A stretch of 64,000 nucleotides of DNA. Source: an uncultured Dehalococcoidia bacterium. Its GTDB lineage: Bacteria; Chloroflexota; Dehalococcoidia; Lucifugimonadales; Australimonadaceae. Positions 7,407 to 38,046 of the stretch are shown one piece after another; position 1 is the first letter of the stretch, and the number at the start of each line of letters is the position of its first letter. Location: the NCBI GenBank assembly GCA_958295525.1, contig OY282355.1, positions 1,091,504 to 1,155,503 on the forward strand, written 5' to 3'. The notes beneath the pieces are model-generated. The model was not told where the DNA came from and made no database searches. It saw nothing but the letters and a program-made list of their open reading frames with translations. The position numbers and the translations under genes were made by a program.

Positions 7407-7806
7407 GCGTCAAGAGGGCCTATAAGCCGGATTCTGTACGCGGCGCGAACGCCGCGCGGCGGCCATCTCTCTGGTCCCGCCGTCGCCGACGGGATCGTGC
7501 AGCCTACCCGGGGACTGCGGCCGGGCACCGCGCTCCGTTCCGAAGAGCGGAAACGTCCCTCTATTTGGCCTTGCTCCGAGCGGGGCTTGCCAGCATTCCG
7601 GCTTGCGCCGGAACCTGGTGCGCTCTTACCGCACCTTTTCACCCTTGCCTGCGCCCCGCGCGAACGCGAGGCCATCGGCGATCTGGTCTCTGTGGCGCTT
7701 TCCGTCGCATCGCTGCGCCTGGGCGTTACCCAGCGCTCTGCCCGGCGGAGTCCGGACTTTCCTCCCCGGCGCGAGCGCCGGAGCGGCCGCCCGGCCCTCT
7801 TGACGC
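7407..7806 (-). ncRNA. rnpB: RNase P RNA (bacterial class A)
   Basis: Catalytic RNA that matures tRNA 5' ends. On the minus strand the conserved 5' block GAGGAAAGTCCGGAC is complementary to bases around 7749-7763, and the conserved 3' block ACAGAATCCGGCTTAT to 7422-7437. The ends pair as helix P1: GCGTCAAGAGGGCC at the 5' end (7793-7806) with GGCCCTCTTGACGC at the 3' end (7407-7420). Length is near 400 nt, as expected. It lies directly downstream of the degenerate serine recombinase gene on the same strand. Exact ends are inferred from P1. Confidence 0.95.
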
Positions 7807-7825
7807 CCCCAGCATACCACGCGCT

Positions 7826-9202
7826 CTAGCGCAGCGTAACCGCCGCCTTCTTCCCCCGCAGCGCGACTTTCGAAACGAGCGTCCGCAGCAGGTCGCGCCG
7901 CGCCGCCTCCGGAAGGCCGTCCCACTCGCTCAAGAATTTCGCCGCGTTCGCCTCGGCGTCGTTCCGCGAGGCCGAGCCCGCCTCCGCCTGGGCGATTTTC
8001 TCCGCCAACTCCCGTTTCACCGCCTGCAACTGCTCCAAGCCGCCGCGCAGCCGCGCCAGCGACAAACTGCCGCTCGCGGCGCGCTGCACGCCATCTCGGA
8101 ACTGCCGGTCGAGCGACTCCATATCGGCGAGCGCCTTCGCCTTCTCCGCGTCCTCGCGCCCCGCGCCGACGTCCGCGCCCGGCCCGCGCTCGCCGCTTTC
8201 GAGGAGGCTTCGCGTCGCCCGCGCCGCCTCTTCCTCTATGTCCGCCGCTTTCACCGTCCGGTAGGCGCACTGATTGCGGTTGATGCGCGACTGGCATTGA
8301 TAGTAGCGATATTCGGCCCGCATCCGCTCGCCGTCCTTTCGCCGCCACGTTTGACGCCGCGACACGCCCATCATCCGGCGGCCGCAGTAGCCGCAGACGA
8401 GCAGCCCCGAAAGCAGAAAGACCGACGGCGGGCGCGATTCCAGCCGCTGCGCCGGCCCCCGCTCCAGCAGACGATCTTGCGCTTGCCGGAACACCGACGG
8501 CGAAACGATCGGCTCGTAACTCGACGGAATCCGCAGCCCGAACCGCCGGTACGTTCCGATGTAGGCGGGGTTCCGCAGCACGTCCCGCACGGCGACGACG
8601 CCCCACCGTCCGCCGCTCCGCGTGCGCTTCCGCCGCGCGTTCAGGCCCGCCGCCACGCTCCGCATGCTCCCGTCCGGCTCCAAGTAGCCGTTGAAAATGG
8701 ATGCGACGACCTCCGCCTCCGCCGGCACGACGTGGAACGCCCCGTCGAACGTCAGCCGGTAGCCGTAGGGGGGCTTGCCCAAGCCAAGCCCTTTCGCCGC
8801 CTTCGCCATCATTCCCGCCCGGACGCGCTCGCCGCGCTGCGCCGTCTTGTTGGAGATGCGGAGCGCATTCTGCAGCGGGTCGGGGAAGTCCCGGTCGTCG
8901 CACACGACTTGCGAGGAGAGCGCGTCCATCTCCAGCACGCGCGCCGCCTGCTCCTCCAGCCCCGCGCCCAAATGCTCCGCGCCGGGAACGACCACCAAGT
9001 ATCCGAGCCGGCTGTCCCGAATGTGGTCGGCCATCGCGCGCCATCCGGCGCGCCCGCCCTCGCCCCTCGGATCCGCGTATGTCCCGTGCGGAGTGTGCAG
9101 CCGCTCCTCGCAGTACGCCGCGAACGCCGCCTGCAATTCGGCGCGCCCGAAGCGTCCGCCCCGCGCGTTTTCGTCCACGGTGAAATAGCCCACTGCCCGC
9201 AT
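7826..9202 (-). CDS. Serine recombinase-family protein with degenerate catalytic domain and zinc ribbon
   Basis: 458 residues with the layout of a large serine recombinase: N-terminal resolvase-like domain (1-125), recombinase domain (about 140-245, with GKPPYGY and LRNPAYIGTYRR), zinc beta-ribbon (C270, C273, C303, C312) and a C-terminal helical region. The catalytic core looks dead: where active enzymes read Y-x-R-V-S, this has YFTVD, losing the Arg and the nucleophilic Ser, and the usual DRLxR motif is GAEHLG. It starts 4 bases after the zinc-ribbon gene and ends 20 bases before rnpB, so it sits in a housekeeping operon rather than a mobile element. A DNA- or RNA-binding role is possible; function unknown. 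Confidence 0.85.
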   Translation of the reverse strand: MRAVGYFTVDENARGGRFGRAELQAAFAAYCEERLHTPHGTYADPRGEGGRAGWRAMADHIRDSRLGYLVVVPGAEHLGAGLEEQAARVLEMDALSSQVVCDDRDFPDPLQNALRISNKTAQRGERVRAGMMAKAAKGLGLGKPPYGYRLTFDGAFHVVPAEAEVVASIFNGYLEPDGSMRSVAAGLNARRKRTRSGGRWGVVAVRDVLRNPAYIGTYRRFGLRIPSSYEPIVSPSVFRQAQDRLLERGPAQRLESRPPSVFLLSGLLVCGYCGRRMMGVSRRQTWRRKDGERMRAEYRYYQCQSRINRNQCAYRTVKAADIEEEAARATRSLLESGERGPGADVGAGREDAEKAKALADMESLDRQFRDGVQRAASGSLSLARLRGGLEQLQAVKRELAEKIAQAEAGSASRNDAEANAAKFLSEWDGLPEAARRDLLRTLVSKVALRGKKAAVTLR

Positions 9203-9206
9203 CGCC

Positions 9207-9905
9207 CTACTCCGGCAAGAGAATTCGCCCGCAGTTCGGGCACCGCGTCGGCGACGGGGAGGAGCGCACCTCTTGCGCCGTCCGCGACGGAACGCCCACT
9301 TTGCACGCTCCGCAGGCGCTGTTATGCATTCGCGCCACCGGCTGCGGCCGCGACTTCCGAACCTGCTCGTACAGCGCCGTTTCCGGGGGCGGCGTCCGCG
9401 CGACCAACCCGCCGCGGCGCTCGACCAGCGCCGCCGTTTCGGCGCGCAGGCGCTCCTGCTCCGCCGCGAGCGACTTCTGCTCCGCCTTCCACGACTCCTT
9501 TAATGTCTCCAACTGCTGCGCCGAGGCGTCGCGGCTGCTCCGCGCCAAGTCCAACCCCACCAGCGTCTCCAGCAGCGCCTCTTCCTGCGTCCACCGCTGA
9601 CGCTTGAGCATCTCGACGTCCGCCTGCAGATCGCGCAACTCGCGGGGATTCATAATGACCCCGGCGTAGAGTTTCGTCTCCGCCGCGTTCACTTTCTCCG
9701 TGAATCCCGCGACCGCCGCGTCCAACTCTTGCTGACGGGACAGCCCCGCGTCCACCTCCGCCTGCTCCCGCCTTAATCGCCTCGCGAGCGCGCGGAGCGC
9801 GGAATCGTCCCCGAGCAAGGCGTCGATCTCCGTGAGCCGCGCGCTTCTTGCGGCGAGATCGCCGTCCACCTCTTGCAATTCCAACAACTCGCGGGATGCG
9901 GGCAT
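9207..9905 (-). CDS. Coiled-coil protein with C4-type zinc ribbon (CT398/DUF164-like)
   Basis: 232 residues: a long charged coiled coil (about 1-185, rich in Glu, Arg, Leu and Ala) followed by a C-terminal zinc ribbon with C198-x2-C201 and C222-x2-C225 in the pattern RCPNCGRILLPE. This is the architecture of the CT398-like family, which is thought to act in nucleic-acid or trafficking complexes but has no firm enzymatic role. It is followed after 4 bases by the recombinase-like gene and then rnpB, all on the minus strand. Confidence 0.88.
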   Translation of the reverse strand: MPASRELLELQEVDGDLAARSARLTEIDALLGDDSALRALARRLRREQAEVDAGLSRQQELDAAVAGFTEKVNAAETKLYAGVIMNPRELRDLQADVEMLKRQRWTQEEALLETLVGLDLARSSRDASAQQLETLKESWKAEQKSLAAEQERLRAETAALVERRGGLVARTPPPETALYEQVRKSRPQPVARMHNSACGACKVGVPSRTAQEVRSSPSPTRCPNCGRILLPE

Positions 9906-10023
9906 CGCTCGCCTCGACGAAAACTGCCGCGATTCTACGGACGAGGCGCCTCGTCTGTATAGGAAGAATCTATGCGGGTTAGCGCGGGGCGCGGGCGTAA
10001 TGGGCGAGTGGCGCCGCCCGAAC

Positions 10024-10749
10024 CTACGCCCTGCCCTGCTCCCAGCGCCACGCGATCCCCAGCGCGCCGCCCAATGCCGCCGCCGCCGCGTCCGCCGCCG
10101 CGCGGACCCCCGGGGCGCGCCCCAGCAACGCCGCCATTGACGTCACCGGCCTGTCCGCGACGCCGCATGGGACGATGGCGCGGTATGCGCGCAGGTCGGT
10201 CGAGACGTTCAGCGCGAAGCCATGCATGGCGACTCCGCGCGCGACTTTGAGGCCAATCGCCGCGACCTTCCCGCCGTCCGTCCATACGCCGGTGAGCCCC
10301 TCCTCGCGCCAAGCCTCGACCCCGAACTCCGACAGCGCGGCGATCAGCGCCTGCTCGATGGCCGCCGCGTACCGCCTCGGCCCCCAGCCCATCGCCGCGA
10401 GCGACACGATGGGATAGCCCACGAGTTGCCCCGGCCCGTGATAGGTCGTCTGCCCGCCCCGGTCGGTCTCAACGAGCGGCGCGCCCAGTTCCTCGATCAC
10501 GTGCTCCGGCAGCGAGCGGCGCCCCGCCGTGTACACGGGCGCGTGCTCCAACAGCAACAGCGCGTCGTCAGTCTCTCCGTCGGCCCGCGCAGCCGCCAAA
10601 CTTCGCTGCAACTCCCACGCCCAAGCGTAGTCAACGCCGGCGCCCAACCAGCGCGCCGCGCCGTTTCTGAGCGCCGGGGCAGGAGCCGCGCCGGCGCTCG
10701 CTTCCTCGACATCCTGCTCCCGAAGCAGCCCCAGCGGGGAGCGCGTCAC
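10024..10749 (-). CDS. lipB: Octanoyl-[acyl-carrier protein]:protein N-octanoyltransferase (lipoate synthesis)
   Basis: Transfers octanoate from acyl-ACP to the lipoyl domains of 2-oxoacid dehydrogenases and the glycine cleavage H protein, the first step of lipoate synthesis. Signature RGGQTTYHGPGQLVGYPI and the catalytic Lys (GGKVAAIGLK, K161) and Cys (IVPCGV, C195) are present. I start at the GTG at 10749, which has GGGAG eight bases upstream and gives 241 residues; an upstream GTG at 10809 would add 20 residues without a good ribosome site. LipA is not in the window. Confidence 0.92.
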   Translation of the reverse strand: MTRSPLGLLREQDVEEASAGAAPAPALRNGAARWLGAGVDYAWAWELQRSLAAARADGETDDALLLLEHAPVYTAGRRSLPEHVIEELGAPLVETDRGGQTTYHGPGQLVGYPIVSLAAMGWGPRRYAAAIEQALIAALSEFGVEAWREEGLTGVWTDGGKVAAIGLKVARGVAMHGFALNVSTDLRAYRAIVPCGVADRPVTSMAALLGRAPGVRAAADAAAAALGGALGIAWRWEQGRA

Positions 10750-10843
10750 GCCGCCTGCTCCCGCAACGCCTGCAACTGCGCGCCGTCCGTCATAACGGAA
10801 TGCTACCACGCGGGGGTTAGGTAGGCTGCAGTCTGCGGGCTAC

Positions 10844-13575: not shown

Positions 13576-14103
13576 ATGCCGGACGAAATGCATCCTCCGG
13601 CGCAGGCGTTCGTGGACGGGAACAACGTGATGGGCTCGCGCCCTGACGGCTGGTGGCGCGACCGCCCCGCCGCGCAACTCCGCCTCGCCGCCGACGTGGG
13701 AGCCGCCGCGCAAGCGTCGGAGCGCGAGTGGACGGTCGTGTTCGACGGCGCGCCGCCAATCCCACAGCCGCCGCCCGCCTCGCCGGAGCGCGTCCGCGTG
13801 GAATACGCCGACCGCAAAGGCGCGAACGCGGCGGACGACCGCATCGTCGAACTGCTGGCCGCGCTGCCGGAGGGGACGGACGCCGTCGTCTATACGTCCG
13901 ACCGCCGTCTGCGGGAGCGGGCGGCCGCGCTCGGCGCGCGGGTCGAGGGCGCGGGCGCGCTGCTCCGCCGGACGGCGGCGGCGAACGCGGAGCGGCGCCC
14001 GAACAGGGACAGCGCCTCGTTGCATCCCAACCCCGGCGGCTCTACCATTCCCGCCGACGAACTTGCGAGCGGCGCGCCCGCATTGACGAAGGAAACGGTA
14101 TGA
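13576..14103 (+). CDS. NYN-domain (YacP-like) putative ribonuclease
   Basis: 175 residues of a PIN-like NYN fold. The first acidic residue is D14 in FVDGNNV; further acidic positions lie in FDGAPP, YADRKGANAADDRI and VYTSDRRLRERA, the usual layout of the YacP/NYN family of RNases. The last ~45 residues are low-complexity. It follows mutS by one base and its last four bases overlap the methyltransferase start (ATGA), so the three genes form an operon. Confidence 0.85.
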   Translation: MPDEMHPPAQAFVDGNNVMGSRPDGWWRDRPAAQLRLAADVGAAAQASEREWTVVFDGAPPIPQPPPASPERVRVEYADRKGANAADDRIVELLAALPEGTDAVVYTSDRRLRERAAALGARVEGAGALLRRTAAANAERRPNRDSASLHPNPGGSTIPADELASGAPALTKETV

Positions 14104-15644
14104 GCGCAATGGCGGCGCCCCACCCGCTGAACAGAAACCTCTTCATCGCGGACAACCTCTCGTTGCTCCGACGGCTCGACAACGAGAGCATTGACCTCGT
14201 GTGCATCGATCCGCCGTTCGCCAAGAAAAAGACGTGGAAGGGCGCGCTGAAGCCGCCCCTGACGAAAGCGGAGTTGGCCGACGAGCGCGCGATGCTGCGG
14301 GATTGGGGCATCCGCAACGCAGCGGATGCGGAGACGGCGGGCGTCGTTTGGCCGGACGGGGCGGACTCCACGTACAAAGACATTTGGGAGTGGGACAAGG
14401 ACGTCCACGAGGATTGGATCGCCAAGATGAACTCCGACTGGCCGGCCTTGTCCAAGGCGATAGAAGCCACCCGGTCGGCCCACGACGAGGGGCACGCGGC
14501 GTACCTTGCCTATATGTCCGTCAGGCTTATTGAGATTCACCGCATCCTGAAGCCGACGGGCAGCCTCTATCTGCACTGCGACTACGAGGTCAACTCCTAC
14601 GTCCGCATAATGCTGGATGGCATATTCGGCTGGTCCAATATACGAAATGAATTGGTTTGGTCATACCAGCGGTGGACGGGGGCGACGAACCGCTTCCAAA
14701 GAATGCACGACACGATCTACTTCTACGCGAAAGACGCCGCTAAAACGAATTTCAACCGGCTCACCGAGCCGTACAGCGAGAAGTCCCAGCACAAAGGACG
14801 GCGGCGCACTACGTTTACGCCGGAAGGCAAGATCGAGCAGACCTACACCGACGACACGACGCGCGAAAAGGCAATGCGCGACGTGTGGGAGATTTCCTAC
14901 CTCAATTCGCAAGCGCGGGAACGCGCCGGCTACCCCACGCAGAAGCCCGTCGCTCTCGCGGAGCGCATCATCAAGGCGAGCACGAACCCCGGCGACGTCG
15001 TGCTGGACTGCTTCGCAGGATGCGCTTACGTCCCCGTCGCCGCCGAACGCAACGGGCGCCAGTGGATCGCCTGCGACGTCAGCCCCCGCGCGCTCACCGT
15101 GCTGCGCCGCCAATTCGCCAAGTTCCGCTACTCCGTGAACGGCGAGGCGCAAGGCGAGAGCCCCGCGCTCATCGCCGCCGCCGACGTCACGCTGCGCTCC
15201 CCAAGCGACCTGCCGGAGCGAACCGACGAAGACCCCGTTCCCGCGCAAGACATCAAGCCTCTGCCGGAGCGCCGCTACAAAGTTCCCGCCTCGAAAATCC
15301 CCGAACCAACAATGAAAAAATTCCTGCTGGAGTCGCTCGGCTACAACTGCTGGGGCTGCGGATTCAACCCGCCTCAGAACGACGAGCGCTACTTCCAACT
15401 CGATCACCGCGAGTCGCGCTGGTCGAGCGGCTCCAACGAACTGCCGAACCGCGCCATCCTCTGCCAGCCGTGCAACTTGGAGAAGCAGCACAAGATGACG
15501 CTGCAGGAATTGCGCGACCGCAACACGACCCAGGGGCGAAACTACGGCCCGCTCGTCAACTTGGCGAAAGCCTCCGCCGCGGCCCAAGCCGAGTACGACA
15601 AGCATGTCGCGCAGTCGTACCAGTCCGCGCTTACGAAGGGCTAG
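14100..15644 (+). CDS. DNA methyltransferase (N4-C/N6-A, beta-type order) fused to an HNH domain
   Basis: 514 residues. An amino-methyltransferase motif IV, DPPF (residues 37-40), precedes the SAM-binding motif (DCFAG near 302), the order of beta-class enzymes. A central target-recognition region follows motif IV. The C-terminal ~100 residues carry an HNH-type zinc module: CWGCGFN near 416, QLDHRES, then CQPCNLEKQHKM. Methylation and cleavage may therefore be combined in one chain, or the HNH may only bind DNA. ATG overlaps the NYN gene stop; GAAGGAAA lies upstream. No separate restriction endonuclease is adjacent. Confidence 0.88.
   Translation: MSAMAAPHPLNRNLFIADNLSLLRRLDNESIDLVCIDPPFAKKKTWKGALKPPLTKAELADERAMLRDWGIRNAADAETAGVVWPDGADSTYKDIWEWDKDVHEDWIAKMNSDWPALSKAIEATRSAHDEGHAAYLAYMSVRLIEIHRILKPTGSLYLHCDYEVNSYVRIMLDGIFGWSNIRNELVWSYQRWTGATNRFQRMHDTIYFYAKDAAKTNFNRLTEPYSEKSQHKGRRRTTFTPEGKIEQTYTDDTTREKAMRDVWEISYLNSQARERAGYPTQKPVALAERIIKASTNPGDVVLDCFAGCAYVPVAAERNGRQWIACDVSPRALTVLRRQFAKFRYSVNGEAQGESPALIAAADVTLRSPSDLPERTDEDPVPAQDIKPLPERRYKVPASKIPEPTMKKFLLESLGYNCWGCGFNPPQNDERYFQLDHRESRWSSGSNELPNRAILCQPCNLEKQHKMTLQELRDRNTTQGRNYGPLVNLAKASAAAQAEYDKHVAQSYQSALTKG
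15614..15630 (+). repeat. 17-bp direct repeat, left copy
   Basis: GTCGTACCAGTCCGCGC inside the last codons of the methyltransferase gene; the same 17 bases recur at 16504-16520. The two copies flank the low-GC gene at 15689-16381. Confidence 0.8.
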
Positions 15645-36678: not shown

Positions 36679-38046
36679 ATGACCGGCTACGCCACCCATC
36701 ACTTCGAGGCGGCCTCGCGCTACACCGTCTCCGTGGGCTACGACCGCCGCCTCTACGCCTACGACCTCGCGGGCTCCGCAGTCCATGCGCGGATGCTCGC
36801 GCGTCAAGGGATCATCCCGCAGGCCGACGCCGACGCCATCGCGCGCGGGCTGGAGGACGTCCGCCGCGAGATCGAAGACGGCTCGTTTCCCTGGCGCGAG
36901 GAGCACGAAGACCTGCATATGAACATAGAGGCGCGCCTGCGCGAACTGATCGGCGAGCCCGCCGCGCGCCTCCACACCGCCCGCTCCCGCAACGATCAGG
37001 TGGCCACGGCCACCCGCCTCTATGTCCGCGACGCGGCGGACCGCGCCGTCCGCTCGCTGCGGGCGCTGCAAGGCGCGCTGCTCGCCCTCGCGGAGCGCGA
37101 ACAGGGCGCGATAATGCCGGGCTACACGCATCTGCAGCGCGCTCAGCCTGTGCCTTTCGCCCACCACCTGCTCGCCTACTTCGAAATGTTCGACCGCGAC
37201 GCCGCCCGCTTCGCCGACGCCCGCAAGCGCGTCAACGTCCTGCCCCTCGGATCGGGCGCGCTCGCCGGCGTTCCCTACCCCATCGACCGCGAGTGGGCGG
37301 CGCGCGAACTCGGCTTCGACGCCCTGACCGCCAACTCGATGGACGCGGTGTCCGACCGCGACTACGCCGTCGAATATCTCGCCGCCGCCGCCGCCGCGAT
37401 GATGCACTGCTCCCGCCTCGCCGAGGAGATCGTGCTCTGGTCGTCGCAGGAATTCGGCTTCATCCAACTTGGACGCCAGTGGGTGACGGGCTCGTCCATA
37501 ATGCCGCAGAAGCGCAACCCGGACTTCGCGGAGATTGCGCGCGGCAAGACGGGGCGCGTCTACGGCAGCCTGATCGGCCTGCTCACGACGCTCAAGGGAT
37601 TGCCCCTCGCGTACAACCGCGACTTGCAAGAGGACAAGGAGGGGCTCTTCGACGCCGTCGACACGCTGGAGGCGACGCTGGAGGCGATGCGCGGAATGCT
37701 CGGCGGCTGCGCGGTGAACGCGGAGCGTATGCGCGAGGCAGCGGAGGACAGCGCGCTGCTGGCGACCGACCTCGCCGACTACCTCGTCGGCAAGGGCGCG
37801 CCGTTCCGCGAGGCGCACGCGGCGGTGAGCGCGCTCTGCGAAATCGCGGCGGAGCGCGGCGTCCCCCTCATGGCGTTGCCGCTGGAGGAGATGCGCGCCC
37901 TGCGCCCCGAGTTCGACGAGGACGCGCGGCGCATCACCGCCGAGGCGAGCGCCGCCGCCCGAGACGTTCCCGGCGGCGCGGCGCCCGTCCGCGTCCGCGA
38001 GGCGCTCGCCCAGGCGAAGGCGCGGCTGGAGGCCGCCGGTGGCTGA
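36679..38046 (+). CDS. argH: Argininosuccinate lyase
   Basis: 455 residues of the fumarase/aspartase superfamily; releases fumarate and arginine. The family signature GSSIMPQKRNPDFAEIARGK holds the catalytic serine loop; HTARSRNDQVAT and GYTHLQRAQPVPFAHH contain the substrate-binding residues. Its start lies 7 bases after the membrane array and its stop overlaps the rpe GTG. Confidence 0.97.
   Translation: MTGYATHHFEAASRYTVSVGYDRRLYAYDLAGSAVHARMLARQGIIPQADADAIARGLEDVRREIEDGSFPWREEHEDLHMNIEARLRELIGEPAARLHTARSRNDQVATATRLYVRDAADRAVRSLRALQGALLALAEREQGAIMPGYTHLQRAQPVPFAHHLLAYFEMFDRDAARFADARKRVNVLPLGSGALAGVPYPIDREWAARELGFDALTANSMDAVSDRDYAVEYLAAAAAAMMHCSRLAEEIVLWSSQEFGFIQLGRQWVTGSSIMPQKRNPDFAEIARGKTGRVYGSLIGLLTTLKGLPLAYNRDLQEDKEGLFDAVDTLEATLEAMRGMLGGCAVNAERMREAAEDSALLATDLADYLVGKGAPFREAHAAVSALCEIAAERGVPLMALPLEEMRALRPEFDEDARRITAEASAAARDVPGGAAPVRVREALAQAKARLEAAGG

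Follow-up and report, generated by a model that had tools for sequence, protein, structure and literature searches.

Large serine recombinases (LSRs) such as the A118/LI integrase, the SPbeta integrase, phiC31 and Bxb1 are built in one order: a resolvase fold, a recombinase domain and a zinc ribbon with a coiled coil. Active members carry Ser10 together with Arg8, Arg68 and Arg71, and reside on mobile elements with attachment sites. The XisF and CcrA/B/C families, LSR equivalogs in NCBIfam, are working recombinases, and serine recombinases recruited by their hosts are usually described as still recombining. Base reading in the LI integrase falls to the recognition helix and to the hairpin of the zinc ribbon, through Tyr207, Asn208, Asp287, Thr288, Tyr295 and Tyr297 (PMC3783163). 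Exapted prokaryotic mobile-element genes, which hosts have taken over and pass on vertically, are reviewed in PMC8987985; in the portion of that paper available to us the recruited recombinases rearrange DNA, and the word "inactive" is absent from it.

The LSR encoded in the window (the whole stretch of 64,000 nucleotides analysed here) has the same domain order, but differs from the A118/LI, SPbeta, phiC31 and Bxb1 proteins in lacking the catalytic residues and in having an acidic N-domain (Table 1). Its family, unlike the known LSRs, occupies one conserved chromosomal locus, with DNA-reading residues that are frozen over a class of bacteria. Homology to XisF and CcrA/B/C is detectable over the DNA-binding part (36-47 bits against cut-offs of 375-900). 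We consider it probable that the protein is an ancient, exapted, recombination-dead integrase that now belongs to the host and binds double-stranded DNA in a sequence-specific manner. A literature search that reached few of the subscription journals returned no catalytically dead LSR of class-wide occurrence.

Table 1. Positions of the recombinase gene, its domains, the adjoining features and the repeat copies in the window.
Feature	Position	Strand	Remarks
Catalytically dead large serine recombinase, 458 aa	7826-9202	-	intact ORF; stop codon 7826-7828
Resolvase-fold N-domain, residues 1-105, active site lost, net charge -5	8888-9202	-	alignment, structure
Recombinase domain (HTH-like, DNA-binding), residues 125-255	8438-8830	-	near-invariant R181, R206, N188, W200, N211
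Zinc-ribbon domain, residues 256-330; Cys270, 273, 303, 312	8213-8437	-	
Coiled-coil motif and C-terminal tail, residues 331-458, helices 343-376 and 382-408	7829-8212	-	predicted
CdsZ-like gene (coiled-coil hairpin and C4 zinc ribbon)	9207-9905	-	4 bases upstream of recombinase
RNase P RNA gene rnpB	7407-7802	-	Rfam RF00010, 268.6 bits; 23 bases downstream of recombinase
-10-like TATGCT, possible rnpB promoter	7811-7816	-	by eye; between recombinase stop codon and rnpB
ATTCCCGCNNNNGCGGGAAT copies, 20 bases each	813, 4684, 4730, 7191, 7230, 7307		
ATTCCCGCNNNNGCGGGAAT copies, 20 bases each	10869, 20437, 42037, 42090, 47903, 61870		

The gene order on the minus strand is cdsZ - recombinase - rnpB. 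A lipoyl ligase-type gene (10024-10809) is located upstream. The preliminary description gave the gap to the zinc-ribbon gene exactly and that to the RNase P RNA gene as 20 bases, which is 3 bases too short. The protein matches PF07508 (Recombinase, E 7e-17) and PF13408 (zinc ribbon, E 7.8e-13), in agreement with the earlier statement that both domains are retained, and has no match to PF00239 at E<=0.001. It is the sole PF07508 protein of the window's genome, across which PF00239 likewise gave no match. The protein of the upstream neighbour scores above the cut-offs of PF24481 and PF02591, but reaches only 26.3 bits with the CdsZ equivalog NF047363 (cut-off 275 bits), and is for this reason named no more than CdsZ-like; the two genes are probably co-transcribed. 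Its coiled-coil hairpin and C4 zinc ribbon are those of the CdsZ/FlgZ family (CT398, HP0958, MSMEG_4306/Rv2229c). According to one account of this family (PMC5947703), HP0958 and CT398 bind RpoN and secretion-apparatus proteins, the role of the mycobacterial member is unsettled, and the tuberculosis homologue of the M. smegmatis relative is reported to be essential. A DNA methylase gene (N6_N4_Mtase, E 3.7e-44) is found on the plus strand at 13653-15644, a few genes beyond the recombinase. The strand opposite to the recombinase gene contains a 680-aa open frame (7565-9607), most likely a GC-rich shadow frame. Farther along the window, a tRNA-Gly of 89 bases (36977-37065) was called by ARAGORN; the Rfam scan at the gathering threshold did not call it, and it is possibly spurious.

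The catalytic columns were assigned by alignment to LSRs bearing the motif. In the window protein R8 is replaced by T, S10 by D (codon 9173-9175), D67 by E, R68 by H and R71 by A, and R45 is kept; the four residues of an active LSR (8, 10, 68 and 71) therefore read T/D/H/A. Three or four of these residues are kept in 0/136 orthologues (none in 60, one in 65 and two in 11), a set in which the N-end is unreadable in the extracted sequences of L024, L055 and L062 and some other loci are cut off at contig ends. The loss of catalytic residues noted earlier for the one protein is thus found in 136/136 orthologues. The S10 column is occupied by D, G, T, A, L, P, K and others, with no consistent substitute nucleophile. 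All four residues are present in 43 of 44 control LSRs, the 44th (L301) being gapped at S10. Among 20 further LSR genes of the class, 17 show Y-x-R-x-S and an 18th a doubtful word only. As read from these alignments, an LSR of the class lost its cutting chemistry long ago and its DNA-reading surfaces are almost unchanged.

The AlphaFold model of the recombinase, built from 50 orthologues, has a mean pLDDT of 91.3. Residues 1-108 of the model superpose on the catalytic domain of TP901-1 (3bvp) with an rmsd of 1.9 Å over 100 residues (Z 14.5), by which the resolvase fold is recovered and the register confirmed. Together with the motif alignment, this superposition indicates a resolvase fold without its chemistry and excludes a misread frame; active residues in another register, which the preliminary description had named as a possible objection, are not found. 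Among solved structures the model is matched best by serine integrases, 9y66_C (Z 19.1, rmsd 12.4 Å across the whole multi-domain chain) and 4kis_B (Z 15.0), and the coiled coil that LSRs carry within the zinc domain is represented by the two long predicted helices. PF07508 and PF13408 are matched at E<=0.01 in 50/50 orthologues and PF00239 in 24/50, the window's own protein not among the latter.

The class to which we refer is the Dehalococcoidia/SAR202-type Chloroflexota, judged from the titles of named relatives. In the nearest set of genomes, which includes the window's own, strong matches (E<=1.1e-42) are present in 41/59; this value is used instead of the 47/59 obtained at E<=0.001, since the matches beyond the 41 are weak, some of them to other LSRs. 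At E<=1e-25 the protein is matched in 127/245 genomes of the class (88/156 of the better-quality ones), and is thus not confined to this genome, the other objection foreseen. About half of the sampled class shows no strong match, and in those genomes the recombinase is not indispensable. Among 301 genomes drawn from the phylum 13 have a match, 10 of them class members; of the three outside the class, two hold LSRs with the R-x-S motif (L063/L066; L064) and the third a frame broken by a stop (L065). The best 80 matches in named genomes carry titles of Chloroflexota groups (Dehalococcoidia, SAR202 and others) in 79 cases, and that of "Bacterium HR29" in one. The 136 orthologues are a subset of the matches from the nearest-set and class searches; several near relatives within families were omitted, as were L063-L066 (outside the class) and G007 (contig edge).

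The 136 orthologues cluster together in the tree, next to two sister LSRs from the class: L299, which bears GYFRVST and DRFGR, and L301, which bears DRFGR and has an unreadable N-end. Control LSRs that were truncated or near duplicates (L269, L277, L279-L282, L284) were omitted, and the second tree was built without L309 and L318. The support is 1.0 for the orthologues with the two sisters and 0.50 for the dead clade alone; a single inactivation is the likely origin of the dead clade, and this stays short of proof because of the latter value. Three orthologues of family f46 (L126, L128, L132) are located away from cdsZ and rnpB; their N-domain is strongly diverged in the first two and missing in L132, which suggests that it can be shed.

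The recombinase gene is under purifying selection, and the N-domain is restrained too: in 15 pairs from six congeneric genes dN/dS is 0.11-0.35 for the whole gene and 0.10-0.52 for the N-domain. The distances between recombinases track those of cdsZ (Mantel rho 0.67; 58 loci, taken as every other one of those with cdsZ; the largest value in 500 permutations is 0.25). The median pairwise identities of the orthologues are 27% for the N-domain, 47% for the recombinase domain and 51% for the zinc domain, against 33%, 31% and 26%, respectively, in 26 control LSRs, and the ratio of N-domain to recombinase domain identity is 0.56 versus 1.23. In these comparisons the constraint is inverted: the catalytic domain drifts and the DNA-reading parts are held. 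The median net charge of the N-domain is -4 in the orthologues and +1 in the controls, and that of the recombinase domain +11 versus +6. All four zinc cysteines are kept in 125/136 orthologues, with at least one missing in 11/136. In the case of the coiled coil the identity (20%) is hardly above that of the controls (18%), which lends no support to a bridging function.

The residues fixed in the orthologues only are R181, R206, M277, V280, W286, Y300, Q302, S305, R306, N308, T316 and E323. The conservation of R181 is 0.99 versus 0.23 in the controls, of R206 0.94 versus 0.15, of Y300 0.99 versus 0.35 and of N308 0.95 versus 0.27. Other invariant residues (G147, Y148, W200, N211, Y214, G216) are general LSR features. 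The putative base-reading hairpin of the zinc-ribbon domain carries R282, W286 and Y298-Y300; R282 is among the putative DNA-reading positions that are fixed here and variable in active LSRs, and W286 is situated in a hairpin insert missing in 25/26 controls. Counted from the hairpin cysteine, Y298 corresponds to Tyr297 of the LI integrase, a base contact, and W286 falls near Asp287/Thr288 (LI contacts from PMC3783163). An acidic, drifting N-domain with a frozen reading surface would fit a protein that recognises one sequence without contact between N-domain and crossover site. The nucleic-acid binding put forward in the preliminary description is thereby supported indirectly, through the fixed putative DNA-reading residues and the intact predicted LSR fold. 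Domestication, also put forward there, has good support in the class-wide inheritance at one locus, the purifying selection and the loss of catalysis in every orthologue.

The cdsZ-like gene precedes the recombinase gene on the same strand in 116/136 loci, mostly within ~10 bases, and in 79/80 of the best named loci the two are adjacent. Downstream, rnpB occurs within the examined flank in 92/136 loci, on the same strand in 90/92 (it is opposite in L057 and L122). Both neighbours are present in 81/136 loci and neither in 9/136, counts in which some flanks end at contig ends; with both neighbours at 81 loci, the arrangement is more than chance. Synteny in related genomes is therefore seen, and the fixed chromosomal place behind cdsZ speaks for a location outside mobile elements, an active LSR being expected on an element with attachment sites. 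The earlier wording "fixed beside rnpB" holds for the 92 loci, but the linkage to the cdsZ-like gene is tighter. A frame of ~450 bases often found between the recombinase gene and rnpB is RNase HI (rnhA; two confirmed), and in the window's genome an RNase_H match is located elsewhere, outside the recombinase locus. In seven loci (L119, L133-L135, L137, L139, L140) rnpB follows at 10-68 bases and no cdsZ match is found upstream; either the rnpB link outlasts the cdsZ link or cdsZ is too diverged there. Among 26 genomes without a strong recombinase match, class A rnpB is present in 21 and a Zn_ribbon_9 match in 20. In stretches from 15 of these gene-less genomes rnpB comes after cdsZ in the same orientation, with no recombinase between them and with rnhA in four; some gene-less versions have the two genes 55-234 bases apart. 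The cluster is thus independent of the recombinase and probably older, and the position beside rnpB probably reflects inheritance of the neighbourhood and no link to RNase P. Words similar to the -10-like TATGCT are seen by eye at the same place in most compared loci, and rnpB seems to have its own -10.

A binding partner in RNA, with the protein acting in RNase P RNA maturation or in the control of rnpB, is unlikely in our estimate. The frequent same-strand position of rnpB speaks for it, as do the intervening RNase HI genes, which make the cluster rich in RNA-related functions, and the loci in which rnpB is close by without a cdsZ match. On the other hand, the neighbourhood exists in the 15 genomes without the recombinase, rnpB appears to own its -10, nine orthologues lie away from both neighbours, and the conserved residues map onto the parts of the LI integrase that read duplex DNA (PMC3783163). 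The gap to same-strand rnpB is -3 to 128 bases in 45 loci (hand count), which makes the rnpB promoter border on or extend into the 3' end of the recombinase gene, and one could regard the gene as a mere promoter carrier or cluster passenger with an idle protein. This is highly improbable given a dN/dS well below 1, near-invariant residues far from the 3' end, loci in which rnhA or other sequence separates the two genes, and the gene-less versions of the cluster.

A dead integrase could also serve in defence, by occupying an attachment site and so hiding it from the phages that integrate there. Descent from LSRs and the retained DNA-reading surface agree with such a role, but it would be expected to entail turnover and patchy gain and not a specificity frozen over the class, and no close relative is found on viral contigs (30 matches, the best 35% over part of the protein); we regard it as very unlikely. 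Hardest of all to credit is a recombination that persists through unusual residues or an active partner subunit. Two of the four catalytic residues are kept in 11/136 orthologues and motif-bearing LSRs coexist in the class, but no replacement nucleophile is consistent in the S10 column, and the window's genome offers neither a PF00239 partner nor a PF07508 protein other than the recombinase itself.

For the exapted DNA-binding protein that we favour, the following course can be proposed. A phage-type LSR would have ceased to recombine by an early stage of the radiation of much of the class, or already before it. Its resolvase-fold N-domain and long helix may now serve as a dimerisation scaffold only, with the recombinase domain and zinc-ribbon hairpin clamping a symmetric site of ~40-50 bp whose sequence would be common to the whole class. 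The coiled coils may tie two such DNA complexes together, so that sites would be marked or bridged without cutting. By analogy we infer the dimerisation via the N-domain and long helix, the coiled-coil bridging and the CdsZ partnership, the last also from the gene order: the recombinase is encoded directly behind cdsZ, which makes CdsZ the likeliest partner. The persistence of the gene away from both neighbours in nine loci argues for a product acting in trans. The full picture of a class-owned site-marking and bridging dimer, reading one 40-50 bp sequence, using the old synapsis coiled coils and the CdsZ partner, and joining distant sites, is doubtful, though possible. If bridging were true, integrase synapsis without cutting would have become a chromosome-organising or regulatory device. 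In contrast to the usual recruitment, the chemistry would have been discarded and the DNA-reading half alone kept, in much of a bacterial class. If the favoured reading is right, this is an LSR specificity fixed by nature, with one target expected to be shared by more than 100 orthologues, and the comparison of frozen with freely evolving members allows a direct test of how LSRs read sequence. Little is known of gene regulation in these mostly uncultured Chloroflexota, to which the protein would add a DNA-binding factor specific to the lineage.

The search for a target site returned only sigma70-like promoter words among the k-mers of 112 cdsZ upstream regions (up to 200 bases each). Shared dyads (80 named loci and part of the window, up to 12.5 kb) were located in coding or rnpB sequence in the cases inspected, and silent-site constraint in the recombinase gene or cdsZ showed no place common to five groups. 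The perfect 16-base palindrome GACGAGGCGCCTCGTC (9940-9955), just upstream of the cdsZ-like gene, was rejected as compatible with chance (18/100 shuffles), and has no counterpart upstream of cdsZ in the genus mates compared. The palindromic repeat ATTCCCGCNNNNGCGGGAAT was also rejected as target, as most of the gene-bearing genomes tested lack it and a gene-less genome of the same order (G029) has 530 copies. It is REP-like and very unevenly spread, absent from 25/36 genomes tested, with 649 exact copies in the window's genome and 68 in a congener. In the window itself it has 12 matches with up to 2 mismatches, versus 0.06 expected.
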